From contig NZ_CP016756.1 of the NCBI RefSeq assembly GCF_001700965.1, forward strand, positions 868,001 to 932,000: a stretch of DNA of 64,000 bases, given 5' to 3'. The position numbers and the translations under genes are program-made. Each line of letters begins with the position of its first letter. The first letter of the stretch is position 1. The DNA is from Stenotrophomonas nitritireducens (GTDB lineage Bacteria > Pseudomonadota > Gammaproteobacteria > Xanthomonadales > Xanthomonadaceae). Under the pieces are notes generated by a model, which saw only the letters and a list, made by a program, of their open reading frames with translations, was not told where the DNA came from and ran no database searches. Of this stretch, positions 5,125-42,615 are shown one piece after another.

Positions 5125-6339
5125 ATGAGCTCCGAAACGCTGGAAATACTGCTGCAGAACGAGCTGCCTGCCGCCCGTAAGGGCTGCATGCAGTCCTACG
5201 GGCGCATCGTGGTGGCCTGCCAGAACACGGTGACCGCCATCGCCCTGGCCATCACCCGCGACGTGCACGCCAGCGAGGACATCGCCCAGGAAGCCTTCAT
5301 CAAAGCCTGGCAGCAACTCACCCAGCTCAACAATGCCGCCAGCTTCCTGCCGTGGCTGCGGCAGATCACCCGCAACCTGGCCCGCGACTGGCTGCGCGCC
5401 AACCGCAACCGACCGCTCTCCGGCGAGGCTGCGGAAATCGCCATCAGCATGGCCGCCGATCCCTCGCCCAATGGCGTGGATGTGATGGCGCGGGTGGAAG
5501 AAGAACTGGTCGCCGAGGAAATCATCTCGGCCCTGCCCGAGGACAGCCGCGAAACACTGCTGCTGTACTACCGCGAAGGACAAAGTTCGCAGCAGGTGGC
5601 GATGCTGCTCGGCCTGAGCGATGCGGCCGTGCGCAAGCGGCTGTCGCGCGCACGCGCCAGCGTGAAGGAGGAAATGCTCAAGCGCTTTGGTGAATTTGCA
5701 CGCAGCAGCGCACCCGGTGCGGCATTTGCCGCGTTCGTCAGCTCGGCGCTGATGCTGGCCGCACCCGGCACCGCCAGCGCGGTGATCCTGGGCACCAGCG
5801 CAGGGGTCGCAAGCACGGGTGTCGGCAAGCTGGGCATTGGCGGCCTTGGCGCCAGCACCGCCAGCAGCGGTGCGGCAGCGGGCACGCTGGGGGCGGTAAT
5901 CAACAACTTGTTTCCCAATTCCTTTGCTGTCTGGGTGGTGCTGGGCTCGGTTGCGCTCGGTACCGGGGCCACCTACCTCTCCAATCTCTACCTGTTGAGC
6001 TATGCCGAGACGGCGGAGGAGAAGCGCGGCGTTCGGCGCTTCATGCGCTTGATCACCCTCAGCGCATTTGCGTTCTGCATCTGCACCATGGCCGGCGTCG
6101 CTCTGCGCATGGGCGTGATCGGCGGACTGGTGACGATGGCCGTGGGCATGATCGTTCTGAACTACCAGTATCTTGTGATCCTGCCCCCACTGATGGCGCC
6201 CATGCTCGCCCGCGACGCAGCACGCCATGGCCGCAACGGCCCCACCTGGGTTTACCAAAGCATGTTCGGGCGCAGTGCCATTGCCGTCACCTCGCTGATC
6301 GTGGTGGCAGTGGTGCTTTTCGTCCTGCTGCGGCACTGA
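5125..6339 (+). CDS. ECF-type RNA polymerase sigma factor with multi-pass membrane C-terminus
   Basis: A 404-residue protein. Residues ~25-95 are sigma region 2 (EDIAQEAFIKAWQQL, LPWLRQITRNLARDWLR), residues ~128-185 region 4 (LPEDSRETLLLYYREGQSSQQVAMLLGLSDAAVRKRLSRAR). Normal ECF factors end near residue 190. Here about 215 more residues follow with an Ala/Gly-rich hydrophobic part (~195-230) and strong membrane segments near 266-291, 309-328, 331-355 and 384-402. The likely reading is a sigma factor tethered to the inner membrane and controlled in cis. The ATG at 5125 is chosen where the sigma domain begins. No separate anti-sigma gene is adjacent. Confidence 0.85.
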   Translation: MSSETLEILLQNELPAARKGCMQSYGRIVVACQNTVTAIALAITRDVHASEDIAQEAFIKAWQQLTQLNNAASFLPWLRQITRNLARDWLRANRNRPLSGEAAEIAISMAADPSPNGVDVMARVEEELVAEEIISALPEDSRETLLLYYREGQSSQQVAMLLGLSDAAVRKRLSRARASVKEEMLKRFGEFARSSAPGAAFAAFVSSALMLAAPGTASAVILGTSAGVASTGVGKLGIGGLGASTASSGAAAGTLGAVINNLFPNSFAVWVVLGSVALGTGATYLSNLYLLSYAETAEEKRGVRRFMRLITLSAFAFCICTMAGVALRMGVIGGLVTMAVGMIVLNYQYLVILPPLMAPMLARDAARHGRNGPTWVYQSMFGRSAIAVTSLIVVAVVLFVLLRH

Positions 6340-6346
6340 AGCAGGC

Positions 6347-6376
6347 AAACAAAAACCCCCGCTGTTGCCAGCGGGG
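6347..6376 (-). terminator. rho-independent terminator of the EF-hand gene
   Basis: On the minus strand a CCCCGCT/AGCGGGG stem is followed by a T-rich run (TTTTTGTTT). It sits just past the EF-hand stop codon and just past the convergent sigma-factor stop. Confidence 0.75.
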
Positions 6377-6403
6377 ATGGTGTCGATCGGCGCCTCTCCG
6401 GAA

Positions 6404-6988
6404 TTACTTCGCAGCCGGAGTCTGCGGCGTCATCGGGCCACGCGGACCGCGGTGATCACGATGACCGTCGTTGCGTGCGGCCTCCAGTTCGGCCGGGCTC
6501 AACTTGCCGTCCTTGTTGGTGTCGGCCTTGGCAAACCATTCGGCGCGACGCTGTTCGGCGCGGGCCTGGCGATCAGCCTGGTCGATGTAGCCGTCCTTGT
6601 TGACGTCCAGGCGGGCGAAGTTGGCCTGGTACTCGGCGGCACTGATGCGGCCATCGTGGTCGGTGTCCATGCCACGCATGAAGCCGCCATCGCGCTGCCC
6701 ATGCATGCCGGCGTGACGACCGCCGCCATGACGTCCGCCGTGGCGCGGCTGCGGCATTTCCTCGCGCTGCAGCTTGCCGTCCTTGTTCTTGTCCAGTTCG
6801 TCAAAACGCTGCGCCAGTCGCGGATGCGCCGCTGCTTCCTGGCGGTCAACCACGCCGTCATTGTTGGCGTCCATGCGCGGCGCGGCCGGCTTCGGATCGG
6901 CCGGTGCAGCTGCAAAAGCCAGGCCGGTCGCCGAGGTGGCCAGCAGCATCGCCAGCAGGAGGAGAGGTTTGCGGTGGGTCTGGGTCAT
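6404..6988 (-). CDS. exported EF-hand calcium-binding protein
   Basis: A 194-residue protein with a signal peptide ([26 protein letters not shown]). Four calcium-loop motifs are visible: [36 protein letters not shown] and [12 protein letters not shown], with a further partial one, [13 protein letters not shown] His/Gly-rich linker splits the first two from the rest. It is probably periplasmic and binds Ca2+ as a buffer or sensor. It stands alone, convergent with the sigma factor gene and divergent from bpt. EF-hand proteins of this sort are common in the Xanthomonadaceae; a specific role is not known to me. Confidence 0.85.
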
Positions 6989-7137
6989 GGTGTGGCTCCG
7001 TGGTGAGACTGCGGACGCGGCATTGCGTCCTCGCTACGGTCAACGCGCCAGCCACCGAGCGGTTGACCTGTACACCGGCGATATTCATCGCGCAGACAGG
7101 CGCAGGTTTTGCGACGCACCGCCGCTATGCTGTGCGC

Positions 7138-7899
7138 ATGGCAGCCCACGGTGACAACAACGACGAACTGCGCCTGTTCCAGACCGGCGAGCATCCCTGT
7201 GGCTATTGGCCGGAACGGCAGGCACGCGACCTGGTGCTGGATCCGCAGGACCGGCGCCTGGGCGCGCTGTATCCAATGGCCTTGACCTGGGGCTTCCGCC
7301 GCTCTGGCGATCTGGTCTACCGCCCGCACTGCGAAGGCTGCCGCGCCTGCGTGCCGGTGCGCATACCGGTGGCGCGTTTCAACCCGGACCGCAGCCAGCG
7401 CCGCTGCCTGGCCCACAACGCCGATCTGGACTACCGGATCCTGCCCGCCGAACGCACCGAGGAACAGTTCGCGCTGTACCAGCGCTACCTGCAGCACCGT
7501 CACCGCAACGGCGGCATGGATGACCACGGCCCGCACGAGTTCGATCAATTCCTGATCGGCAGCTGGTCGCATGGGCGTTTCATGGAGATCCGCACACCGG
7601 GCGCGGCCGGCAAGCGCGGGCAATTGCTGGCCGTTGCAGTCACCGATGTGACCGAGCAGGGCCTGTCGGCGGTGTATACCTTCTTCGACCCGGATCAGGC
7701 AAAGCGCGGCCTGGGCACCTACGCCATCCTGCAGCAGATCGCCTGGGCGCAGCGCAATGGCCTGCCGCATCTCTACCTGGGTTATTGGATCAACGGCCAT
7801 CGCAAGATGGACTACAAACGGCGCTTCCATCCCTTGGAATATTTCGACGGCAAACGCTGGATGCCGGGCGGCCTGGACAACGATGATGGTTTCCCTTGA
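7138..7899 (+). CDS. bpt: aspartate/glutamate leucyltransferase (bacterial N-end rule)
   Basis: A 253-residue protein of the Bpt/ATE family. [18 protein letters not shown] and the cysteine cluster [18 protein letters not shown] are the hallmark N-terminal motifs; the C-terminal half has the GNAT-like core with [22 protein letters not shown] and [18 protein letters not shown]. It transfers leucine from tRNA to proteins with N-terminal Asp or Glu, marking them for ClpAP. The ATG at 7138 gives the normal length; a GTG two codons upstream is an alternative. No clpS or clpA is in the window. Confidence 0.93.
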
Positions 7900-8018
7900 A
7901 TGAGAACCCGCTCAATTGTGCCGCGCCTTGATGCATATTTAACCGCGATTTATGCAGAATGGCACGTCATCGCGCATCGTGGTGGCGCAAGGAAGTATCC
8001 ATTCAACAGGAGCAATGC

Positions 8019-8381
8019 GTGAAGACCCAACTACTGATTCTGGCTGCAATTGGCACCCTCGCCCTGGCCGGCTGCAAGAAGGCCGAGACCCCGGCTGCCG
8101 ATGCACCGGCAACCGCCGCCGCCGAGGTTACCCCGGCGCCGTCCACCGACACCGTCAAGGCCGGCACCGGCGTCCCCGAATGCGACCAGTACCTGGAAAA
8201 GGTCTACGCCTGCATCAGCGACAAGGTCCCCGAGGCCCAGCGCGACATGATGAAGCAGGGCATCGAGCAGTCGCGCAGCGCCTGGGCGGGCGTGACCGAC
8301 AAGACCGAACTGGCCAACCAGTGCAAGACCGCGCTGGAGCAGGCCAAGACCACCTTCGGCGCGATGGGCTGCAAGTTCTAA
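8019..8381 (+). CDS. small cysteine-containing lipoprotein, DUF5339-like (tentative)
   Basis: A 120-residue lipoprotein: signal VKTQLLILAAIGTLALAGC with lipobox LALAGC, then an Ala/Pro/Thr linker, then a helical domain with four cysteines (CDQYLEKVYACIS, NQCKTALEQ, GMGCKF-like end) that could form two disulfides. The start is GTG at 8019, preceded by AACAGGAGCAATGC; upstream codons are polar and do not look like protein. It resembles DUF5339 exported proteins, but this is from memory of the pattern. Function unknown. A hairpin terminator follows. Confidence 0.75.
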   Translation: MKTQLLILAAIGTLALAGCKKAETPAADAPATAAAEVTPAPSTDTVKAGTGVPECDQYLEKVYACISDKVPEAQRDMMKQGIEQSRSAWAGVTDKTELANQCKTALEQAKTTFGAMGCKF

Positions 8382-8406
8382 GCAACCGCATCGCGTTGTG
8401 CATGGG

Positions 8407-8434
8407 CGCCCCGCTTGCGGGGCGTCCGTGTTTT
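8407..8434 (+). terminator. probable rho-independent terminator after the small lipoprotein
   Basis: A GC-rich stem (CGCCCCGC / GCGGGGCG) followed a few bases later by TTTT. The loop is tight, so the real stem may be shorter. Confidence 0.6.
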
Positions 8435-8470
8435 CGCCTCTCCGTCATGGGGACGTGAGAAAATGGTCGC

Positions 8471-9664
8471 ATGCGCATATCAACCCTACTCGCCCCGATG
8501 ACCCTGCTGCTGGCAGCCTGTTCCACTTCCCCCAGCGGCAGCGCCGCCGCCCCGGAGCAACTCCGGCTGGCCACCTACAACACCTCGCTGTACTCCGATG
8601 AGGAAGGCGGCCTGATCCGCGAACTGCAAGGCGACAGCGCGCATGCGCGCAAGATCGCCGCAGTGCTGCAGCAGACACGCCCGGACCTGGTCCTGCTCAA
8701 CGAATTCGATTTCGACGACGCCCACAGCGCCGCCGACCTGTTCCAGCAACGCTATCTGGAAGTGGCCCAGCCCGGTGGCGGCGAACCCCTGAAATATCCT
8801 TACCGCTACCTGGCCCCGGTCAATACCGGCGTGCCCAGCGGCCTGGATCTGGACAACAACGGCAGCGTCGGCGGCAAGGGCCGCGAGCGCGGCAACGATG
8901 CCTGGGGCTACGGCCTGCACCCGGGCCAGTACGGCATGCTGGTGCTGTCCCGGTACCCCATCGATGAAGCCGCCGTACGCACCTTCCAGTTGTTGAAGTG
9001 GAGCAGCCTGCCCGGCGCGCTGCGCCCGGTCGACCCGACCACCGGCAAGTCGTTCTGGCCGGACGCGGTATGGTCGCAGCTGCGCTTGTCCTCCAAATCG
9101 CATTGGGACGTGCCGGTGCGCACGCCGCTGGGCACCGTGCATGTACTGGCCTCGCACCCCACCCCGCCCGTGTTCGATGGCAAGGAAAAGCGCAACGTCG
9201 CGCGCAACCACGACGAACTGCGGCTGTGGAAGGAATACCTGGACGGCGGCGACAAGCCATGGCTGTGCGACGACAAGGGTACCTGCGGCGGCCTGGCTGA
9301 CGACGCGCGCTTCGTCATCGTCGGCGATCTGAACAATGACCCCGCCGATGGCGACGGCCGCCACGACGCCATCCTCGAACTGCTGGAGCACCCGCGTGTG
9401 CTGCGCTACCCAACCCCGACCAGCATTGGCGCCGAGCAGACCAGCCTGGCCTATGCCGAAAAGGGCATCGTTCGCCGCGGCGCTCCGCAGCACGCCACCG
9501 GCGACTTCGGCCCGCGCTCGGGCACGATGCGGTTGGACTATGTGCTGCCCTCCAGCGGCCTGGGCTACATCGGCAGTGGCGTGTTCTGGCCTGCCAATGA
9601 AAGCCCGGAGGCGAAGATCGCCGATGGCAGCGACCACCATCTTGTCTGGGTGGATGTGCGCTGA
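8471..9664 (+). CDS. endonuclease/exonuclease/phosphatase family lipoprotein
   Basis: A 397-residue protein beginning with a lipoprotein signal (MRISTLLAPMTLLLAAC). EEP-fold motifs are present in order: LATYNTSL, LLNEFDFDD (metal-binding Glu), YGMLVLSRYPI, SHPTPPVF, VGDLNNDPADGD (GDxN) and SDHHLVWVD at the end. It is likely an outer-membrane or periplasmic phosphodiesterase/phosphatase; substrate cannot be told. It is monocistronic, between two terminators. Confidence 0.88.
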   Translation: MRISTLLAPMTLLLAACSTSPSGSAAAPEQLRLATYNTSLYSDEEGGLIRELQGDSAHARKIAAVLQQTRPDLVLLNEFDFDDAHSAADLFQQRYLEVAQPGGGEPLKYPYRYLAPVNTGVPSGLDLDNNGSVGGKGRERGNDAWGYGLHPGQYGMLVLSRYPIDEAAVRTFQLLKWSSLPGALRPVDPTTGKSFWPDAVWSQLRLSSKSHWDVPVRTPLGTVHVLASHPTPPVFDGKEKRNVARNHDELRLWKEYLDGGDKPWLCDDKGTCGGLADDARFVIVGDLNNDPADGDGRHDAILELLEHPRVLRYPTPTSIGAEQTSLAYAEKGIVRRGAPQHATGDFGPRSGTMRLDYVLPSSGLGYIGSGVFWPANESPEAKIADGSDHHLVWVDVR

Positions 9665-9669
9665 AAAAA

Positions 9670-9697
9670 ACGCCGGCTAAGCCGGCGTTTTTTTTTG
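9670..9697 (+). terminator. strong rho-independent terminator
   Basis: Stem ACGCCGGC/GCCGGCGT with a TTAA-like loop followed by nine T's, six bases after the stop codon of the EEP-family gene. Confidence 0.92.
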
Positions 9698-9707
9698 CTT
9701 CTGGATT

Positions 9708-9975
9708 TTGTGGGAGCGGTGTAAACCGCGAAGCTGATGGATCATCAGATCACAGAAACCACTGCACTCCAGCGATGCGAGCTTCGCGACCAACTTTGCT
9801 ACCACAAAGCAATGGCGACCCGCGCATGTAGGGGCGGCGTCAGTCGCGAAGCAGAAGCATCATCAGATGGCGATGCGCCTGTCTGCGCCAGCAATGCCAG
9901 CTTCGCGGCTCACGCCGCTCCTACAAGCTGACAACGCGCTCACGTGTAGGAGCGGCGTCAGCCATGAAGCTGCAC
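9708..9975. repeat. cluster of REP hairpins (GGAGCGGCGTNAGCCGCGAAGC family)
   Basis: At least five degenerate copies in alternating orientation: near 9708-9735, 9778-9810, 9828-9856, 9899-9930 and 9944-9972. The unit pairs GCGGCG..CGCCGC or its variants. No open reading frame with coding character is seen between the terminator at 9697 and purT; this cluster is all that the gap holds. Confidence 0.8.
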
Positions 9976-10045
9976 CAGCAAGAGCGGTGAAGCTCCCCCT
10001 CCCCAACCCTCCCCTGGCCTTCGGCAAAGCGAGGGAGCAGAGCGC

Positions 10046-11230
10046 TCAGCGCAGTTCAATTCCAATGGCCGCTGCGGCATCACGCGCAATCGCACGCGCC
10101 TGATCCACATCAGCTGCGCGGGCCAGGGTTACGCCGACGCGGCGCTGGCCCTGCACCATCGGCTTGCCGAACAGGCGCAGTGCCGAATCCGGATGGATCA
10201 GTGCCTCAGCCACATTGCTGAAGAACGGCACGCCATTGCCCTGTGCCAGCATCGCGCACGACGCCGACGCACCGTTGTGGCGGATGGTCGGGATCGGCAG
10301 CCCGAGGATGGCGCGCGCATGCAATGCGAACTCGCTCAGTTCCTGCGACACCAGCGTGACCAGCCCGGTATCGTGCGGGCGCGGTGAGACTTCACTGAAC
10401 CACACCGCATCGCCCTTCACGAACAGCTCCACGCCGAACAGGCCCCAACCGCCGAGGTCATCGGTGATGGCGCGGGCAATCTGCTGCGCGCCTTCCAGTG
10501 CCTTGGCCGACATCGCCTGCGGCTGCCAGCTTTCACGGTAATCGCCGTCCTTCTGCAGATGGCCGACCGGATCGCAGAACGCGGTGCCGCCGGCATGGCG
10601 CACGGTCAGCAGGGTGATCTCGTAATCGAAATCGATGAAGCCCTCGACGATGCAGCGACCGGCACCGGCACGGCCGCCGGTCTGCGCGTATTCCCAGGCC
10701 GGACCGATGTCGGCCTCATTGCGCAGCGTGCTCTGGCCTTTGCCCGAAGACGACATTACCGGCTTGACCACGCACGGCAGGCCGATCGCGGCAACAGCGT
10801 CTCGGTACTCGGCTTCGGTATCGACGAAGCGATACGGCGAGGTCGGCAGGCCCAGGGTTTCCGCTGCGAGACGGCGGATGCCTTCTCGGTCCATGGTCAG
10901 GCGCGCAGCGCGCGCGGTCGGGATGACCCGCAGGCCCTGCTCGGCCTCCAGCTGCACCAGGGTTTCGGTGTGGATGGCCTCGATCTCGGGCACCACCAGA
11001 TGCGGCTGCTCCTGCGCGATCAACGCCTTCAGCGCGGCCGGGTCCAGCATGTCCAGCACATGGCTGCGATGGGCGACCTGCATGGCCGGGGCATTGGCAT
11101 AGCGGTCGGCGGCAATCACCTCCACCCCGAAACGCTGCAGCTCGATGGCCACCTCCTTGCCCAGTTCGCCCGAACCAAGCAGCAGCACACGGGTAGCGGA
11201 CGGGGACAACGGGGTACCGAGGGTGATCAT
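10046..11230 (-). CDS. purT: formate-dependent phosphoribosylglycinamide formyltransferase 2
   Basis: A 394-residue ATP-grasp enzyme of the usual PurT length. Visible motifs: [29 protein letters not shown] at the N-terminus, [14 protein letters not shown] (nucleotide loop), [42 protein letters not shown]. It makes formyl-GAR from GAR, formate and ATP in purine synthesis. It is not next to other purine genes here; purA is 43 kb away. Confidence 0.95.
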
Positions 11231-33872: not shown

Positions 33873-34475
33873 ATGAAATTAGTAGCAGTTCTTGCTGCAT
33901 TCGCTGTCCTTGCGATTCCGCTAAACCTGGCGTTTGCCGCCGAGAGCACCGGCACCGGGCCGATACATGTCGGCATCACCGATGCGGGCAGCACGCTTGG
34001 CCTTGCATTCACACCTCCCGGCGAAGAAGGCTGGACAAGGAATGGTTCCGGAGCGAGCACGACGCTGAGCTGGAACGCGGAGTCCGCTTCGGACAACCGC
34101 AAGATCGAAGCCTATCTAACCCGTCTCGACGCGCCGATAGCGCCAATTTCGGGCTACATCAAGACCGTCAAACGCAATCTGGAACAAGGCTACGCCAGCA
34201 GCCCACGCTTCAAGATCAGCTCGCTTCAAGTGAGCCAATACCCTTCGGACCCGCGCTGCGCAAGAATCCACCTGCTGCTTGAGGCACGGCAACCCGCGGC
34301 AGACGGGCAGCGGCAATGGAGCGAACAGTACGCACTGTCGTGCGGCTCATTGAAAACCAGAGGTGTCGGTTACGAGCTGCGCTATTACCACCGCTATACC
34401 GACGCCCACCGCGATGACGGGCTGGAAGCAAAAGCCAATGCAGTGCTGGAAAGCCTGGTCATTGAAGGCGGTTGA
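33873..34475 (+). CDS. exported protein of unknown function
   Basis: A 200-residue protein with a signal peptide (MKLVAVLAAFAVLAIPLNLAFAA). The mature part has no motif I recognise; two cysteines (DPRCARIHL and ALSCGSL) may form a disulfide. GGGAGATACGA is a good ribosome binding site, which sets the start. Its base composition is less GC-rich than its neighbours (many AAA, TTA and AGT codons at the start). It is convergent with the TonB-domain gene. Confidence 0.7.
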   Translation: MKLVAVLAAFAVLAIPLNLAFAAESTGTGPIHVGITDAGSTLGLAFTPPGEEGWTRNGSGASTTLSWNAESASDNRKIEAYLTRLDAPIAPISGYIKTVKRNLEQGYASSPRFKISSLQVSQYPSDPRCARIHLLLEARQPAADGQRQWSEQYALSCGSLKTRGVGYELRYYHRYTDAHRDDGLEAKANAVLESLVIEGG

Positions 34476-34545: not shown

Positions 34546-36465
34546 CTACTCCGCCCTGAACATCACCGGCATATTCAGCGTCACCTCGTCCACACCGGCC
34601 GCCGTTTCCCCGGGCGACACACTCCAGCCCAAGGCCGCTTCGCGGGCGGCCTTATCCAGCAAGGCGTTACCACTGCTCCTGGCGACGCTGACCCCACGGA
34701 CCTCGCCTGATCCGGCCAGCCTGATTGCCAACATCACCGTACCGCCCGCCTTTTCGTTCCAGGCAGCGGTGGGATAGCGTGGCGGGTTGAAACGCGCCTG
34801 GCGCGCTACCAGCTCCTGCAGATGCTGCACGGTGCGCGGCGAAACCGGGCGTGGCGCCGGCGCCTTGGCCCCTGCTGCCACAGGCTCCCTGCCCGGCACC
34901 ATGGGCGGGGGCGGCCAGTCGGGAATTTCCTCCACTGGCTGCGGCGCTTCGAATCGCACCTGCACGCGCCGCCGCTCGCCATCCCCGGCAATTGGCCTCA
35001 GCGCTTTCCAATTGCGTGCGGACCCCCGCACGGCATCATCCAGCGCGGGGTCGCCGCTGCTGCGCTCGATCAGGACCGAGCTGATGCTGCCATCGGCCAG
35101 CACGTCCACCGCCACCAGTACGCTGCCACCACTGCTGAGGCCAGATGGCGGAAGCCGCACAGGACGCTGTTGCTGTTCGAACCCCGCAGACGGCAGATCA
35201 ACCCGGACCAATTCATCGGCAGGCTGCACCGTCACTACCGAGGGCGGTGTCGGCCGCGGCAACGGCAACAAGCCCTTGCCGGTGCTCACGAACTGCGGCG
35301 CGGGCAGGACCTGCTCCGGCGACGTCTTTCCCTCTTCGGCCGCAGCGCTGCTCTCGCCCGAAGCGGACGCGGTGTTGCCGATGATCGTTGCAGCACGCGC
35401 CTTCAGCAAATCCAAACGCAGGCGCGAGCCATCGGGCAGCAAGCGGGTGCTGATCCGCATATCCGATTGAAACAACATCTCATCGCTGATCGACATCGTC
35501 ATCGCGGAACTACCGGATGCCGAGCGCCGCAACTGGTCGGCAAGCAGCAAAGCCCCCAGCGCCACTTCTTCGTCGGCGTCCACGATGGTGGCGGCATAGC
35601 TGGACCAGAATTCGGCGGACTTGGGTGCATAGCCGAGGATGGCCTCCTGCAGCCGAATCAGGTCAATGAGTTTTTCCTCCAGCAAGCCATCGTCGTCCGA
35701 CGCCGCATCCTCAGCGGAACCGCGCTCGGCCTTAAGCCGCAACGCAAACGCAAGCACAGCCATGTCCTGCAGCAGCAGCCGCCGCCCGGCGATATCCACA
35801 TCAGGGACGGCCTGCCACATTGATTTCAGCGCGGCATGCCGCTGCCGGCTCAGCATTTGTTTTGTTTCCCTGCCCGCCGGCATGTCGAAGGTGGCATTGA
35901 ACCTGTCGCGCGCAGCATTGAACGCCTCGCGGTCACCACCAACACGCACGCCCCTGCGCGCCCATAGTTGCAATTCATCCAGCCCGGCATCCACCCGTTG
36001 CTGATCCTGACGCGCCGCAGCCCGGGCAAGCGCATGCACTTTTCCGGCAGCGTCTCGCTCGTAGCTGCTGCGTGAATACCATTCGGGAATCTCGGTGCGC
36101 TTGACCGCAGGCGAACTGCCAGCAACGTCGGCACGCAGCGTTCCCTCTTCCGGTATTACGACATACGGAGACAAACGGGTGGCAAACAGCAGAAAGGCAA
36201 ACCCAATCCCCACAACCAGCGCCGCGCCCGCGTACTTGTGGGAGTGGTCCTTGACTGCCACACGCAGCAGCGCACCTACCGAAACCAGGCTGCCCACCAG
36301 CACGCCAGCGCGGAACGCTGCCCTGCCATCCGGCAATACACCGGTGGCGAACCGATGCCCGATCCATTCGACTCCGCCATAGATGTAAACACCCAACCAG
36401 CCGGCAAACACCACCACGAACAGCAGCATCAGCAGCGCGACGAAGATACCGATGGCGATCTTCAT
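34546..36465 (-). CDS. membrane protein with two TonB-like C-terminal domains
   Basis: A 639-residue protein, last gene of the VWA-PP2C-kinase operon; its ATG overlaps the kinase stop (ATGA). Three membrane helices occupy about residues 4-28, 58-78 and 86-104. A long helical region follows, then Pro-rich linkers with two copies of a TonB C-terminal fold: SGGSVLVAVDVLADGSISSVLIERSSGDPALDDAVRGSARNW and GGTVMLAIRLAGSGEVRGVSVARSSGNALLDKAAREAALGW. Such domains usually sit in the periplasm and touch an outer-membrane or envelope partner. Two of them in one protein tied to a kinase is unusual; the role is open. Confidence 0.82.
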   Translation of the reverse strand: MKIAIGIFVALLMLLFVVVFAGWLGVYIYGGVEWIGHRFATGVLPDGRAAFRAGVLVGSLVSVGALLRVAVKDHSHKYAGAALVVGIGFAFLLFATRLSPYVVIPEEGTLRADVAGSSPAVKRTEIPEWYSRSSYERDAAGKVHALARAAARQDQQRVDAGLDELQLWARRGVRVGGDREAFNAARDRFNATFDMPAGRETKQMLSRQRHAALKSMWQAVPDVDIAGRRLLLQDMAVLAFALRLKAERGSAEDAASDDDGLLEEKLIDLIRLQEAILGYAPKSAEFWSSYAATIVDADEEVALGALLLADQLRRSASGSSAMTMSISDEMLFQSDMRISTRLLPDGSRLRLDLLKARAATIIGNTASASGESSAAAEEGKTSPEQVLPAPQFVSTGKGLLPLPRPTPPSVVTVQPADELVRVDLPSAGFEQQQRPVRLPPSGLSSGGSVLVAVDVLADGSISSVLIERSSGDPALDDAVRGSARNWKALRPIAGDGERRRVQVRFEAPQPVEEIPDWPPPPMVPGREPVAAGAKAPAPRPVSPRTVQHLQELVARQARFNPPRYPTAAWNEKAGGTVMLAIRLAGSGEVRGVSVARSSGNALLDKAAREAALGWSVSPGETAAGVDEVTLNMPVMFRAE

Positions 36466-37865
36466 GGCCGCTTGCTCAAAATCAACACCGGCACGCAGAC
36501 GAGGAACAACAACACCGCGGCCAGCAGCAGGCCGCTCTGGAAGCCCAGCCCCAGGGTCAACCACCAGCCCGGATCCTTGTCCGCCAGGTAGTCACGATAG
36601 GCCGTCATTCCCCAGGTGGTGGCCCAGCCCAACAGCACCGGCCCGATCACCGCAAAGAACACCCGCATGCCCAGCCCAACCGGCTGTGTCGCCGGTGCCG
36701 CAGGCGCTGCTGCGGTCAAAGCGGCAGCGACATTGGGCGTGGCTGCACGGGTCCGACGTGTCGTGCGCGTCGTTTTTCTGCCGGCCGACGTGGTCTGCCT
36801 TGCCCGGGTCTGCGCGGCACGCGCACTGCTCGCCAGCAACTCGGCGCGCGCACAGCCCGCGCACGGCATGCCATCGAAATGCTGATGCGAGCCGTCCCTT
36901 ACGCACTTCACCAACAAGCCGTTGCTGCGCCGCGCATAGCGCAGCAGCAGCGACGACCATTCGGCCGCGGCCGGTCGCCGCCGGGCCTGGCTGGCGAACG
37001 CGCGGTCGAACATGTCACGCAGCTCGGCTGGAAATGCCGCATGGCCACTGACCGGCGATGGCAGGATCCGCGTATCGCCCCTGCCCTGCGCATAAGGATA
37101 GAGATGGGCGGCAATCCGCCCCGGCAGATCACTGGGTAGCGTCGCGCCATTGGGCCTGCCGCTATAGGGATGCAGGCCCGAGTTGAGCAGCTGGAACACC
37201 ATCACCGCCAATGCAAACCTGTCCTGCGCCTCTTCCTCGCCGGCGGCGACGCCGCGCTGCTGGAATTCGGCAGCCAGGTAGTCGGTGGTGACTTGCTCGG
37301 ACAGAAAACGTTCGCCCTTGCCCTGGATGCTGAAGCCATCGCAATCCAGCATCGCGATGAACAGGGACTTGCGATAGAAGCGCACATTGAGCGGCTTCAG
37401 ATCCACCACGTAATGCTGGCGCTCATGCAACGCTGCCAGCATCACCGCCAGATTGGCGGCCAGCGTCATCTTCGGGCCCAACGCGGTCGGCAAGCCCTCC
37501 TCACGCGCCTGCCGCTCCTGCAGTACGTGTTCCAGATCACTGGTTGCGGCGACATCCAACACCGGCATGGTGAAACCCAGAAACCCCCGCGCCTTGTCGC
37601 GCAGCAGGCCGGTGGGCCAGGCAATCTGCACCTGACGCACGCCCTTGTCCTCAACATCGGGCAGGTCCGGGCGCAGCTCCAGCATCGCCCGTACCTTGCG
37701 CTCGTAGACCTGGCCACCCTTGTCGGAGTGATAGAGCTTGGCGACTTCGAGCGGGCGTTCCTTGATCAGGAACACGCTGCCCGCACCACCGCTCTTGAGC
37801 AGCCGGCCCAGCGTCAGCGGCGTACGCTGCTCGTCGTAGATGGTGTCGCCGGCTTGTGCGGCCAT
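36462..37865 (-). CDS. membrane-anchored serine/threonine protein kinase with Zn-binding-like motif
   Basis: A 467-residue protein. Kinase domain ~15-310: ATP-lysine in PLEVAKLYH (K43), catalytic loop YVVDLKPLN (D155, K157, N160; no HRD), and metal site MLDCDGFS in place of DFG, the form seen in kinases paired with VWA and PP2C proteins. Then a Cys/His cluster (C321, H327, C335, C338), a Thr/Arg-rich linker (~350-380) and two membrane helices (~398-420 and ~434-463). The ATG at 37865 lies at the first conserved residues; upstream frame belongs to the phosphatase region. It lies four bases after the PP2C gene. Confidence 0.85.
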   Translation of the reverse strand: MAAQAGDTIYDEQRTPLTLGRLLKSGGAGSVFLIKERPLEVAKLYHSDKGGQVYERKVRAMLELRPDLPDVEDKGVRQVQIAWPTGLLRDKARGFLGFTMPVLDVAATSDLEHVLQERQAREEGLPTALGPKMTLAANLAVMLAALHERQHYVVDLKPLNVRFYRKSLFIAMLDCDGFSIQGKGERFLSEQVTTDYLAAEFQQRGVAAGEEEAQDRFALAVMVFQLLNSGLHPYSGRPNGATLPSDLPGRIAAHLYPYAQGRGDTRILPSPVSGHAAFPAELRDMFDRAFASQARRRPAAAEWSSLLLRYARRSNGLLVKCVRDGSHQHFDGMPCAGCARAELLASSARAAQTRARQTTSAGRKTTRTTRRTRAATPNVAAALTAAAPAAPATQPVGLGMRVFFAVIGPVLLGWATTWGMTAYRDYLADKDPGWWLTLGLGFQSGLLLAAVLLFLVCVPVLILSKRP

Positions 37866-37869
37866 GCGC

Positions 37870-38631
37870 CTAGACCGGCAGCGCCACCAGCAACGTCTTG
37901 TCGTCGCCGGTGATGTGATCGGTGCGCGGATCGGACAGCGTCGCCTGCAAGGCCTGGCTGCCATGGGCAGCATCCACACCGCCCAGATAGCGCAGTACCG
38001 GTGCGATGAAGGGCTGGAACAGGCCACTGCCATCGCGTGTCATCGCAAACGGCTGCACGCCATCGGACATCAGCACCACGGCCTGCACGCGCCCCTCAAA
38101 GCGGGTCAGCCGCAGCTGCTCACGCCAATTGCCACCGGTGACGAACCAAGTCTCGTTGGCGTATTCGCCATTGGCCGGCAGCGATACCGCCGGCGCCTGC
38201 GGCGGCGCAAACTCGCATGCCGCAACACCGTCGCCCACATGGAAGAACCAGCCGCCGCCGGCGTCGGCCACAACCCCGACCAGGGTGCAGGCGTGATCGG
38301 CCAGTGTCAGCTGTTTGCCCGCAGCCATACTGGCCAGTTGCTCGCGGGCATCGATGATCGCCGCCTCGATGATTGTGCGCAGCGCATCCACCGACAGCGC
38401 AGCAGGATTGCCGCCCAGCTGGCGATGCGCGGCAATCGCCGCCACCACTGCCGTGGACACCGTCTTCGCGCCCGTATCACTATGCGTGGCCGAGCCTGCG
38501 CCATCACAGACCGCCGCAACCAGCACGCGCCCTGCGCAAGCCGATGCGAACGCGTCCTGGCATGGCTGCCCGCGATCAAGATGGGAGCGCCCCGTGGCCG
38601 ATGCGGCCATCACCCGCCAGCCCATGTTCAA
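37870..38631 (-). CDS. PP2C-family protein phosphatase
   Basis: A 253-residue protein. PP2C metal-ligand motifs are present: GQPCQDAFA, AAVCDGAGSATHSDTGA, VVLMSDGVQPFA and ITGDDKTLLVALP. It should remove phosphate from Ser/Thr targets of the kinase next door. ATG overlaps the VWA gene stop by four bases. VWA, PP2C and kinase genes in this order form the 'TerY-P triad' described for tellurite-resistance-linked systems, although no terABCDE genes are in the window. Confidence 0.88.
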   Translation of the reverse strand: MNMGWRVMAASATGRSHLDRGQPCQDAFASACAGRVLVAAVCDGAGSATHSDTGAKTVSTAVVAAIAAHRQLGGNPAALSVDALRTIIEAAIIDAREQLASMAAGKQLTLADHACTLVGVVADAGGGWFFHVGDGVAACEFAPPQAPAVSLPANGEYANETWFVTGGNWREQLRLTRFEGRVQAVVLMSDGVQPFAMTRDGSGLFQPFIAPVLRYLGGVDAAHGSQALQATLSDPRTDHITGDDKTLLVALPV

Positions 38632-39308
38632 ACCGTCACGTGCGACCAGCTATCGGTCGACGGCAGCTGTACCTGGCCACCGGGCGTGGAGTTGGACACC
38701 ACCCGCATGCTGGCACTGAGCCACATGAACAGTTCCTTGAACTGCAAGCCCTGCAGGCGCTTCACGCCGCGCTCGCCATTGCGGCTGAACTGGCCAAGCA
38801 CAGCCATATCGGCGTTGCCCACACCAATCGGGAACACCGCCACCTTGTTCTGCTGCTCGGCATCGCGGCAGCGCTCGGCCACGGCCTCCCAGGCATCGGT
38901 GGGGTTGCCATCGGACATCAGGAACAGCCAAGGCCGCGTATAGGCCACCCCGGCCTGGCGGAAGCGCGCCTTCTCGTCTTCGATTTCCTGCAGGGCCAGC
39001 TCCACCGCCGCGCCGGTCGGCGTGGTGCCGTTGGCAGAAAGCTCGGGCGCGCTGAAATCCATCGCGTCACACCAGTCACCGGTGATCGCCGCATTGTCCA
39101 TGTCGCCGTATTCGATCAGCAGCACGCGCACGCGCTTGGCAGCAATCACGTCGCCTTTCAGCTCCTGCTCCAGCAGCTTCAGCCCGGCATTCAGTTGCGC
39201 AATGGGTTCCCCGCTCATGCTGCCGGAACAATCCAGCACCAGAATCAAGGGCGTGCGCTGCTCGCTGTTATCAACCAGCGATACATCGGGAATAGCTGCA
39301 ACAGACAT
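38628..39308 (-). CDS. VWA domain protein (TerY-like)
   Basis: A 226-residue soluble von Willebrand A domain. The MIDAS metal site is intact: LVLDCSGSMSG (DxSxS), the Thr in GTTPTGAAV and the Asp in LMSDGNPTDAW. The ATG at 39308 is preceded by GGAGG eight bases upstream; two in-frame ATGs upstream lack such a site. It is first in the operon and probably scaffolds or binds targets for the kinase/phosphatase pair. Confidence 0.88.
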   Translation of the reverse strand: MSVAAIPDVSLVDNSEQRTPLILVLDCSGSMSGEPIAQLNAGLKLLEQELKGDVIAAKRVRVLLIEYGDMDNAAITGDWCDAMDFSAPELSANGTTPTGAAVELALQEIEDEKARFRQAGVAYTRPWLFLMSDGNPTDAWEAVAERCRDAEQQNKVAVFPIGVGNADMAVLGQFSRNGERGVKRLQGLQFKELFMWLSASMRVVSNSTPGGQVQLPSTDSWSHVTV

Positions 39309-39345
39309 CAGGTGTGCCTCCATGCTCAGGGGACGTCGTGGCCGG

Positions 39346-39351
39346 ATTATA
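39346..39351 (-). promoter_or_regulatory. -10 element for the VWA-PP2C-kinase operon
   Basis: A perfect TATAAT on the minus strand, 38 bases before the VWA start. The -35 region is weak, so an activator may be needed. Confidence 0.45.
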
Positions 39352-39560
39352 GCCATAACTGTGTCTGCAGCTTTTGACGCCCCCAGGTCCCGCCCCTACC
39401 CGCCACGTCCACGCAGCCGCTCGCAACTGCCGAAACCGGCCTATCGCCCCTGCGTCAGGTCGCCATGGCTGCGCTACCATCCGCCGCAACGGGGCGCTGC
39501 GGACCATGGCCCCCTCACCCGCGACCGGCCTGGTCCGGCAGCACAACAGGAGTATCTGGC

Positions 39561-39974
39561 ATGACCGGGATCATCGCTGTTGCCCGTTGGCTGTTTGCAC
39601 TTTTCTACATCTATGTCGGCGCCAGTTGGTTCTCCTACAAATTGTTCGGCACCGCGTGGCCGGACCATAAGGAAACCCCTGCCGCCAAGGCACTCACCAC
39701 CGCGCTGACCGACAGCGGCATCGTTGATCCGCTGATCGCATCGGCCTGCCTTGGCGGCGGCCTGCTGTTGCTGTTCCGTCGCACCGCGCCGCTGGGCATC
39801 GTCGTGCTCGCACCGCTGGTGGTTGGCATCTTCATCTTCCACCTGTTCCTCAACCACGATTGGCCGTGGGGAACATTTCACCTGTGCTACCTGGGCGTGC
39901 TGGTGTGGCTGTATCGCGCAGGCCTGCGGCCCTTGTGGAATTTCCAGACGCCTCCCATCAACAAAGCGCATTGA
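39561..39974 (+). CDS. small four-helix membrane protein, DoxX-like (tentative)
   Basis: A 137-residue protein with about four membrane helices (VARWLFALFYIYVGASWFSYKLFG, LIASACLGGGLLLLF, LGIVVLAPLVVGIFIFHLFL, FHLCYLGVLVWLYRAGL). AGGAG lies ten bases before the ATG. The layout is that of DoxX/DUF-type redox-linked membrane proteins, but I cannot name the family. It is divergent from the VWA operon, with ~250 bp between, and its stop overlaps the next start. Confidence 0.7.
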   Translation: MTGIIAVARWLFALFYIYVGASWFSYKLFGTAWPDHKETPAAKALTTALTDSGIVDPLIASACLGGGLLLLFRRTAPLGIVVLAPLVVGIFIFHLFLNHDWPWGTFHLCYLGVLVWLYRAGLRPLWNFQTPPINKAH

Positions 39975-40168
39975 TGTCGATGAAATTACTCACCCGCATG
40001 TCTGTCGTGCTGTCGATATTGCTGATGCTGGTGGCATGCAGCTCCGCGCCTGCCCGGGGTCCATCCGAAGCAGAGGACGCGGCCATTAAGGAAAACTGCG
40101 CGCTTGCCCGGGAAAGACAAAACGAAATCGCCATCGCGCATTGGTGCGACAAATCAGCGGTGCGTTGA
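39974..40168 (+). CDS. small lipoprotein of unknown function
   Basis: A 64-residue protein with lipobox LMLVAC after MSMKLLTRMSVVLSILL; the mature part is only ~45 residues with two further cysteines (ENCALARER, AHWCDKS). The start overlaps the previous stop by one base. The last 21 codons lie in the first unit of a 250-bp tandem duplication, so a second copy of the 3' end sits just downstream. Confidence 0.65.
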   Translation: MSMKLLTRMSVVLSILLMLVACSSAPARGPSEAEDAAIKENCALARERQNEIAIAHWCDKSAVR

Positions 40169-40594
40169 AATCCAGCAGGAACTCCGGCTCCCGGGTGCGC
40201 GTCGCTTACCCGGGCTACGCCTGCCGCACGCCAACCTGTAGTGCCGAGCCATGCTCGGCAGAGGCCTCACCGGTAGACCAGAAGCAGCACAACCAAACGT
40301 GCACGTGCTTCGCGGCTTACGCCGCTCCTACAACAGGCCATGCAGTTCCACACTTGCCCGGGAAAGACAGAACGAAATCGCCATCTCGCATTGGTGCGAC
40401 AAATCAGGGAAGCGTTGAAATCCAGCGGGAGTTCCGGCTCCCGGGTGCGCTGCGCTTACCCGGGCTACACCCGTCGCACGCCAACGTGTAGTGCCGAGCC
40501 ATGCTCAGCAGAGGCCTCACCGGTAGACCAGAAGCAGCACAACCAAACGTGTTCGTGCTTCGCGGCTTACGCCGCTCCTACAAGAGGCGGCGTA
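40103..40594. repeat. 250-bp tandem duplication carrying the 3' end of the lipoprotein gene
   Basis: Two copies with an exact 250-bp period: CTTGCCCGGGAAAGACA starts at 40103-40104 and 40353-40354, and GCCGCTCCTACAA recurs at 40331 and 40581. Each unit holds the gene's last ~66 bases, a GTAGCCCGGG-family arm (reverse orientation), a GTAG-type REP (GCCGAGCCATGCTCGGC), ~60 bp of spacer and a GCGGCTTACGCCGC hairpin. The copies differ at scattered bases, so the event is not recent. Confidence 0.92.
40353..40420 (+). pseudogene. duplicated 3' fragment of the small lipoprotein gene
   Basis: In the second repeat unit the frame LARERQNEIAISHWCDKSGKR followed by TGA is still open and differs from the parent gene at three residues near its end. 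It lacks the signal peptide, lipobox and any start signal, so it is a remnant, not a gene. Confidence 0.75.
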
Positions 40595-40625
40595 GCCCAT
40601 CGGGCCATCACCAGCGGTTACAGAC

Positions 40626-40652
40626 GACAAGGGCGCCAATGGCGCCCTTGTC
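40626..40652. terminator. hairpin between the duplication and a convergent gene
   Basis: A 12-base stem (GACAAGGGCGCC / GGCGCCCTTGTC) with a three-base loop, 23 bp beyond the stop of the minus-strand gene. No clear T-run on either side, so terminator function is moderate. Confidence 0.55.
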
Positions 40653-40674
40653 GGTTTCAAACCTGTGCGCAAGC

Positions 40675-41091
40675 TCAGTGCGTACCGGCAGCAGCCTTGC
40701 CTTTCGCGCCCAGCTCGCCGGCAAGGTTGCGGCGGTAGGTATCGAAATCGATCCCCTGCTCGGCGGCTTCGGCATGCGCAGCGTCCTTGAGCGCGTCCGA
40801 ATACATCAGGCGTACCGGGGTTTCGTTGTTCTCGTGCCACTCGGCGGCCTGCATGATCAAGGCCAGCACGCGTGCAGCACTGGTGGTCTCACCGGCGATC
40901 TTGCCATCCATGCCCAGCACCCATTCGCCATCACGGCGGACGATACCGGCCAGCAAGGCGCGATGCTGGTCGCGCAATTCGGCATGCGGCTCCACCTTGG
41001 CCTTTGCCGGCGGATTGGCTTCGGCCTGGTTGCGCTCGCGCTCGGCCAGCTTCTTCTTCGCCTCGCGGCGGCCTTTGGATTGGATCGACAT
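40675..41091 (-). CDS. hypothetical protein, charged
   Basis: A 138-residue soluble protein. It begins with a basic/acidic helix (MSIQSKGRREAKKKLAERERNQAE) and continues with AELRDQHRALLAGIVRRDGEWVLGMDGKIAGETTSAARVLALIMQAAEWHE. There is no signal peptide, membrane helix or motif I can name. It stands between a hairpin and the MFS gene. Codon use matches its neighbours, so it is a real gene. Confidence 0.75.
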   Translation of the reverse strand: MSIQSKGRREAKKKLAERERNQAEANPPAKAKVEPHAELRDQHRALLAGIVRRDGEWVLGMDGKIAGETTSAARVLALIMQAAEWHENNETPVRLMYSDALKDAAHAEAAEQGIDFDTYRRNLAGELGAKGKAAAGTH

Positions 41092-41165
41092 CAGTTGTTC
41101 ACTCTTTGAACGGCCGCCGGTGATGGCGGCACGGCTATTGTCCCCGATACGGGGAGAAATTCATG

Positions 41166-42386
41166 TCAGGACGCGTTCTCGACGCGTTGGGCACGCAGGC
41201 TGATGCGCTCCCACTTCCACATTGCCCAGCTGCCAAAGGCAAACAGGGCCGCGCCAATCGCCAGGGTCAGGCCACTGCGGCTGAGCAGCGGCGAAAGCAC
41301 GCCGGCGATGATGGCATTGGTGACCAGGGTGCTGAAGGCCTGCATCGACGAGGCCGTGCCGCGCTGGCGCGGGTACATATCGAGGATGGCCAGGGTCAAG
41401 ATCGGGAAGATCAAGGCCACGCCGAACGAGGTCAGGGTCAGCGGCAACACCGCCCACGGTACCGTCATTTCAGTGGCGAAGGCGTTGTAGCTGATGTTGT
41501 AGACCGCCGCCACCGCCATGAAGCCGTAGCCGATACGCACCGCGCGGGCGCCATCCATCCGCCCAGCCGCACGGCCGGAGGCGTAGGCACCCAAGGCCAT
41601 GCCGCCAATGGTGGGGATGAACAACCAGGCGAACTGGCGTTCGTTCATGTGCAGAAGATCGAGCACGAAGGCCGGCGCCGAGGCGATGTACAGGAACAGC
41701 CCGCCGAAGCCCAGCGAGCCGGCCAGGGCCAGCCGCAGGAAGCGCGGATTCACGCCGATGCTCACGTAGTCCTGCAGCAGGCGCTTGGGGTGCAGGCTCA
41801 GCCGTGCGTGCGGCGGGTGGGTTTCCGGCAGCCAGATGCAGGTGATCAGCAATAACAGTGCCGAGAACCCGACCAGGAACCAGAAGATGCCCTGCCACTG
41901 CGTCCAGCCCAGCAGCCAGCCGCCAATGATCGGGGCGATGGCCGGGGCGATGGAGAAGATCATCGACACCTGGCTCATCAGCCGCTGCGCGTCGTCGCCG
42001 TCGTACAGGTCACGGATCACCGCGCGGCCGATGATGTAGCCCACGCCAGCGGACAGGCCCTGCAGGAAGCGGAACAGCAGCAGCGTGCCCATGTCAGTGG
42101 AAAGTGCGCAGCCGACCGAGGCGGCAATGAACACCACCAGCCCGCCGATGATCACCACCTTGCGGCCCAGCGCATCGGACAGCGCGCCATGCACCAGGCT
42201 CATCAGTGCATAGGCCAGCAGGTAGACGCTGATCACCTGCTGCATGGCCAGTTTGTCGGCGCCCAGGTCGGCGCCCATGTGCGGGAACGCGGGGAACACC
42301 GCATCGATCGCGAACGGGCCGAACATCGACAACCCGGCCACCAACAGGGCGATACGGCGCAATGAAACCTGCTTGCTTGCTTCCAT
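41166..42386 (-). CDS. Bcr/CflA-type MFS drug exporter
   Basis: A 406-residue transporter with 12 membrane helices. The family marks are clear: ADKLAMQQVISVYLLAYALMSLVHGALSDALGRKVVIIGG in the helix 2-3 region, FLQGLSAGVGYIIGRAVIRDLYDG and IAPAIAPIIGGWLLGWTQWQGIFWFLVGFSALLLL. Bcr-type pumps export bicyclomycin, sulfonamides or chloramphenicol by proton exchange, but substrate here is unknown. ATG at 42386 is chosen at the start of the protein-like sequence. It is divergent from gcvP. Confidence 0.9.
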   Translation of the reverse strand: MEASKQVSLRRIALLVAGLSMFGPFAIDAVFPAFPHMGADLGADKLAMQQVISVYLLAYALMSLVHGALSDALGRKVVIIGGLVVFIAASVGCALSTDMGTLLLFRFLQGLSAGVGYIIGRAVIRDLYDGDDAQRLMSQVSMIFSIAPAIAPIIGGWLLGWTQWQGIFWFLVGFSALLLLITCIWLPETHPPHARLSLHPKRLLQDYVSIGVNPRFLRLALAGSLGFGGLFLYIASAPAFVLDLLHMNERQFAWLFIPTIGGMALGAYASGRAAGRMDGARAVRIGYGFMAVAAVYNISYNAFATEMTVPWAVLPLTLTSFGVALIFPILTLAILDMYPRQRGTASSMQAFSTLVTNAIIAGVLSPLLSRSGLTLAIGAALFAFGSWAMWKWERISLRAQRVENAS

Positions 42387-42615
42387 GGTGTTCAGTAACC
42401 AGCAACGGCACCAGCGCGGCGCCGGTGCGGGGTGAGAGACCAGATGAACAGGGCCGGACGCCGGCGGCGCCACTGAGCCATGATGCGGTAATTTGTCCGG
42501 ACATTCACCCGCCTCAGGTAGCGGTTCCGGGCTCCCGGCCGTACGCGTGCAACGCGCGGGTTTGAAACCGGGACGTAGATGGTAATCCAAGCCGCTGCGC
42601 CGGTCTGCCCCGGGC

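Follow-up and report, generated by a model that had tools for sequence, protein, structure and literature searches.

The minus-strand operon described here, located in the window (the whole stretch of 64,000 nucleotides that was analysed), probably encodes, with moderate confidence, a phospho-signalling triad of the YegL-PphC-YegI type whose kinase is a receptor of two chains, the fourth protein being its sensor arm. Judged from the sequences, the most plausible reading of this fourth protein is that of a periplasmic arm which was split off from a receptor-like kinase, since its arm is homologous to the arms of related kinases and since arms ending in TonB_C are found on the kinase chain itself in relatives.

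Gene content and predicted protein structure

Pfam analysis of the operon revealed matches to VWA, PP2C_2, Pkinase (weak) and two stretches of TonB_C. All four genes lie on the minus strand. A VWA protein of 226 amino acids, YegL/TerY-like and with intact MIDAS motifs, is encoded at 38628..39308 (PF00092, E 4.3e-12), and a PphC-like PP2C phosphatase of 251 amino acids at 37870..38625 (PF13672, E 7.5e-43). They are followed by a YegI-like Hanks-type Ser/Thr kinase of 467 amino acids (36462..37865; PF00069 weak) with a C-terminal Cys/His cluster and a membrane hairpin. The fourth gene (34546..36465) encodes a predicted three-helix membrane protein of 639 amino acids, with two TonB-like domains at the C-terminus and an arm that is helical and probably lies in the periplasm (PF03544, E 1.6e-20; AF2 model). 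The original prediction of a VWA protein with MIDAS, a PP2C phosphatase, a kinase and a membrane protein with two TonB-like C-terminal domains was confirmed by Pfam, motifs and AF2, and the four genes are real and positioned as claimed, except that the VWA gene starts at 39308 and not at 39351.

The proteins were compared over 11 close loci, ten from Stenotrophomonas (the window included) and one from an Azonexus MAG (L002). The MIDAS motifs of the VWA protein, the PP2C motifs DGAGS, HxGDG, SDG and DDKT, and the active-site motifs of the kinase are kept in all 11. The same holds for the pattern of the kinase Cys/His cluster (residues 321-338; 36852..36905, minus strand), a putative zinc ribbon for which metal binding is likewise putative. 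At residues 196-200 of the window kinase an APE-type motif is located, which reads YLAAE in seven, YLASE in three and YLAPE in one of the 11 operon kinases; the long kinases discussed below (77 from the best 120 of 464 relatives) all have its proline.

The AF2 model of the kinase has a mean pLDDT of 86.4, and a Foldseek search identified the PASTA kinase PknB as the closest solved kinase (best PDB match E 9.6e-11). Two membrane helices are predicted at the kinase C-terminus (36477..36680, minus strand; AF2 helices 398-417 and 434-463) and three at the start of the fourth protein (residues 1-98; 36172..36465, minus strand). By simple hydropathy, on which all membrane topology calls are based, both kinase helices could be recognized in 9 of the 11 loci (in G320 and G335 the first one was missed), and three fourth-protein helices also in nine (two in G320 and Azonexus). 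The helical arm follows at residues 125-370 (35356..36093, minus strand; hhalign). The first TonB-like domain occupies residues 420-506 (34948..35208, minus strand; PF03544, 32.6 bits; PF13103; bb-a-b in the model), and the second one residues 545-639 (34549..34833, minus strand). Pfam TonB_C was found in 20 of 20 members of the fourth-protein family, and the number of TonB-like domains per fourth protein, read from the sequences, is two in eight of the close loci and one in three (G320, G335 and Azonexus).

The TonB-like tips match solved TonB CTDs, and the claim that the C-terminal folds are TonB-like by structure prediction was borne out by the AF2 model and these matches. The fourth protein shares this C-terminal domain fold with the energy transducers TonB and TolA, but differs from them in its three predicted membrane helices, in place of a single N-terminal one, and in an arm related to kinase arms. 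According to an excerpt of PMC12204202, TonB and TolA bind their motors via an S-H-L-S motif and their targets via strand addition. An S-x2-3-H or S-x-H-x-L motif was found in none of the 11 fourth proteins when the first 40 residues were searched, so coupling to ExbBD/TolQR is unlikely. This result bears on one of the two directions proposed in the original prediction, in which kinase and phosphatase would switch the fourth protein, so that its TonB-like tips could engage either outer-membrane receptors or the Tol/Ton machinery. Such an output is consistent with the TonB CTD matches and with the position of the fourth gene as the last in transcription order. However, besides the absence of the motif, the variable number of tips (none in the arm gene of locus L024, see below) and the arm being the kinase's own C-terminus in relatives argue against it, and under the predicted topology the kinase would have no access to the greater part of the fourth protein. 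We consider this output role unlikely. For the proposal that the fourth gene carries either output or input across the inner membrane, input is favoured, while a role as energy transducer is disfavoured by the absent motor motif.

Conservation of the operon in close loci

A search of 91 Stenotrophomonas genomes for the kinase (E 1e-3) was positive in ten, one of which is the window's own genome. The order of VWA, PP2C, kinase and TonB-domain gene, a check proposed with the original prediction, is the same in 11 of 11 close loci. With gene starts picked by script as those nearest to the starts in the window, the kinase and the fourth gene overlap by four bases in all 11 loci and the gap between PP2C and kinase is four in all 11, while the spacing between VWA and PP2C is 2 in ten loci and 87 in the Azonexus MAG. 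The kinase of G349 is 99.6% identical to that of the window and the upstream flank 96.7%, so that this nearly identical locus adds little to the count of 11. The best segment of the S. terrae DSM 18941 kinase is 100% identical to the window kinase. Two metagenome pairs, P0010 with P0021 (8405) and P0015 with P0028 (3875), agree with the linkage, the members being paired solely by contigs of equal size. When three of the 81 genus genomes that lack the kinase (G036, G005 and G331) were searched with the fourth protein, only matches to the TonB tips were obtained (best E 5.6e-9 to 2.3e-8).

The median identity over 55 pairs falls from 91.2% for the VWA protein to 74.5% for PP2C, 70.2% for the kinase and 38.8% for the fourth protein. 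Within the kinase, the medians are 77.3% for the catalytic part and 37.5% for the linker (55 pairs); within the fourth protein, they are 47.4% for the membrane part, 35.1% for the arm, 48.8% for the first tip and 44.0% for the second tip (28 pairs). Contact of the fourth chain with ligands that vary would lead to such a drop, and relaxed constraint could be an alternative cause of the rapid divergence. The fast drift of the arm would also suit a fourth protein that serves only to anchor the kinase to the peptidoglycan, to the outer membrane or at the division site, without passing a signal, and a helical arm with a tip of the TolA/TonB kind fits such a tether as well. Against this, the varied arms and ectodomains found on the same kinase family look more like swapped sensors, and a pure tether is judged to be quite improbable.

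Homology of the arm and fusion to the kinase in relatives

The reading of the fourth protein as a sensor arm is carried mainly by long relatives of the kinase. Among the best 120 of 464 kinase relatives, 77 have at least 600 amino acids (36 of 600-739 and 41 of at least 740 amino acids). In this set the Cys/His cluster is present in 77 of 77, and one membrane helix beyond residue 340 was predicted in 76 of 77; this single helix would place kinase and arm on opposite sides of the membrane. When 66 of the 77 were scanned with Pfam, 25 showed TonB_C (E 0.01) as part of the kinase chain, and up to ten matched TPR families. A second-round TonB HMM matches all 41 kinases of at least 740 amino acids from this set.

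In a single hhalign comparison, residues 100-395 of the fourth-protein family matched the 36 long-kinase arms without TonB at a probability of 97.3% (E 1.6e-11). Reversed profiles gave 0.3% and 0.8%, five column shuffles at most 0.1%, and controls with PP2C, VWA and the operon kinases 0.1-0.2%. The same 36 arms matched the arms of the 41 kinases of at least 740 amino acids, with the TonB part cut off, at 99.4% (E 4.6e-22; reversed 1.4%). The direct match of the fourth-protein arm to the TonB-bearing arms is weak (18.7% for the whole arm, 21.2% with TonB removed), and the homology link therefore passes through the arms without TonB. The full-length fourth protein aligned to the TonB-bearing arms over helix 3 and the arm start (94.7%) and, further along in both, over the TonB part (95.3%), which indicates collinearity with the fused kinases in their C-terminal half.

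The TonB-tailed kinases belong to Janthinobacterium and Cupriavidus and are labelled 'energy transducer TonB' or 'TonB family protein' in the source. They share the kinase family, the helical arm and TonB_C with the operon, but form one chain with one predicted helix after the kinase, whereas the operon encodes two chains. The claim that the kinase and the fourth gene belong together is supported by their linkage in 11 of 11 loci, by the arm homology and by these fusions of arm and TonB to the kinase chain. The reading as a split-off arm also lends support to the membrane complex put forward in the original prediction, in which phosphorylation would act as the gate. Not supported was the idea of the fourth gene as an unrelated addition to the triad, as its arm is the counterpart of the relatives' own C-terminal kinase arm.

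Distribution of the wider kinase family

Searches with the kinase gave matches in six of 61 relatives and in three of 99 family genomes (the window's own, G148 in two places and G121 weakly at E 3.7e-4). Seven of 143 class genomes matched, including the window's own and two at E over 1e-4, and ten of 200 genomes of the Azonexus order, including the MAG and two at E over 7e-4. A further 16 loci with more distant kinases, two of which (L023 and L110) overlap, were scanned with our own HMMs. A full triad was found by these HMMs in 11 of the 16, and a TonB-domain gene of the fourth-protein family in none. In ten of these 11 triads the same HMMs detected neither an arm nor a TonB-domain gene. The remaining one, L024 from another genus of the same family, carries the triad and then an arm gene (E 1e-16) that overlaps the kinase by four bases and has no TonB domain. 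This locus is situated at 5527-10495, and the same genome carries a second, lone kinase (L023). The notion that relatives which keep the triad also keep the fourth gene holds in the close branch, where all 11 loci are linked, but not outside it, where by these HMMs 10 of 11 triads are without an arm or TonB gene.

As for the loci without a full triad, the kinase stands alone in L023/L110, L053 and L055; in L052 it lies on the opposite strand near a contig end, and in L027, which stops at the contig end, only VWA and PP2C fragments adjoin it. The kinase relative of L053 (6945-9950) has Big_5 and FG-GAP matches in its C-terminal part, i.e. a different ectodomain. In L106 (7411-10705) the full triad is followed by a gene matching the septation protein family IspA (PF04279, E 1e-12), and a gene that by eye is similar to it follows in L107.

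A tree was constructed from 79 kinase catalytic regions, in which many deep forks are open and YegI, L106 and the Azospirillum kinase sit on long branches in unsure places. In this tree one branch (99/97) unites 26 of the 31 entries labelled short with all five operon kinases used, and it also includes two fused kinases. Among the five short entries that fall elsewhere, P0068 has 582 amino acids and the others resemble fragments of long kinases. Four of the five TonB-fused kinases in the tree form a separate branch (99/96), and the L024 kinase is placed outside both. As the TonB-fused kinases are mostly in a branch of their own, the TonB tips may have been gained twice. The tree suggests that fission or fusion of the arm took place more than once, and that TonB tips are present in separate branches.

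Genomic context

The M2 peptidase region gave a match in 61 of 61 genus genomes searched. In 29 loci besides the window's own (30 with it), none of them from operon-bearing genomes, a match to window 40100-42600 lies at most 1.5 kb from the peptidase in 17 and does not in 12. About 7 kb separate the two regions in the window, which indicates that the operon is part of an islet. Within the genus it occupies at least two sites on the chromosome: the flanks are common to G000, G349 and G326, and the other seven have a different downstream stretch in common. Pfam names an M2 peptidase and an MFS transporter among the six flanking ORFs, four being without a match.

Within the islet, small ORFs without Pfam match flank the operon at window 33876-34475 and 39465-39974; the first, of 199 amino acids, has by eye a signal-like start, and the second, of 169 amino acids, is by eye hydrophobic. 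Adjoining the operon, window 40103-40588 contains two direct copies of 236 bases that are 92% alike at a spacing of 250, and this stretch has crossed matches with the G349 flank.

The islet of about 7 kb between genes that are close together in relatives and the patchy spread (10 of 91 genus genomes) are what a TerY-P-like islet for defence or stress would show, in which the kinase would protect the envelope from phages or toxins that enter by the TonB route. TerY-P-like modules with an OB-fold kinase are antiphage, as stated in part of PMC11090510. However, no PADLOC model exceeded 15 bits (best 14.4 and 14 bits, PADLOC-DB), there is no nuclease-like domain in the four genes of the operon, the flanking ORFs named by Pfam are only the peptidase and the transporter, and relatives of long kinases occurred in 0 of 28 viral-contig stretches. 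A defence islet is regarded as very unlikely.

Comparison with known systems

TerY-P triads were reportedly treated by Anantharaman et al. in 2012. According to PMC11090510, they consist of VWA, PP2C and a kinase whose C-terminus bears a zinc ribbon, and they have links to tellurite resistance and to restriction systems. The operon has the same three components, including a C-terminal Cys/His (zinc ribbon) cluster on the kinase, but differs in having a membrane kinase and a separate arm chain. No restriction or DNA-processing gene was found by Pfam among its four genes. The prediction that ter genes are lacking agrees with 0 matches to the TerD family in the window's own genome, the search covering PF02342 alone among the ter families. 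The likeness to TerY-P stands, with E. coli yegL-pphC(yegK)-yegI as the nearer relative and closest characterised triad. There, VWA, PP2C and kinase follow in the operon's order (L029, with an IS1 between pphC and yegI in that record). The identity to the E. coli counterparts is 28% for the kinase over 329 aligned positions, 45% for VWA and 31% for PP2C. In contrast to the operon kinase, YegI (648 amino acids) has an unlike C-terminal part, and the E. coli locus is without an arm or TonB-domain gene by our own HMMs. YegI is a membrane kinase dephosphorylated by PphC, as described in an extract of PMC13232886.

With the PASTA kinases (PknB, PrkC), which provide the closest solved kinase fold, the operon kinase shares the Hanks fold and intact catalytic residues. 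PASTA receptor kinases such as PknB and PrkC also have a PP2C partner. They sense peptidoglycan and combine a kinase with a membrane anchor and an outside sensor (PMC12189002). No PASTA domain was matched in the four operon proteins (Pfam, E 0.1); the operon differs from these kinases in a sensor that would be placed in a second chain with TonB-like tips and in its VWA partner.

For the two-chain receptor kinase, the following mechanism can be proposed. The kinase chain would comprise a cytoplasmic Hanks domain, the Cys/His cluster and a two-helix membrane anchor, and the fourth chain, as the sensor, three membrane helices, a periplasmic helical arm and one or two TonB-like tip domains. Through strand addition, as is the case for the tips of TonB and TolA, these domains may attach to a partner in the periplasm or the outer membrane; alternatively, they may bind peptidoglycan. 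Binding would be relayed via a joint membrane bundle to the kinase, which would then autophosphorylate and phosphorylate cytoplasmic targets; PP2C would undo the phosphorylation, and the VWA protein, the best conserved part, may dock the kinase onto its targets.

In a broader view, to which we give somewhat less than an even chance, a Gram-negative class of receptor Ser/Thr kinases would take the role of PASTA kinases by means of exchangeable periplasmic arms, made up of helical arms, TonB-like tips or Ig/FG-GAP domains. In Stenotrophomonas this receptor would have come apart into two chains, the kinase and a sensor with TonB tips that monitors the outer membrane or peptidoglycan, and PP2C and a VWA adaptor would be its constant partners. 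A receptor that is split by nature and has fused relatives offers a direct handle, the removable chain being the candidate sensor, and the TonB-like tip suggests where the ligand should be sought. If true, the TonB fold would gain a role outside energy transduction.
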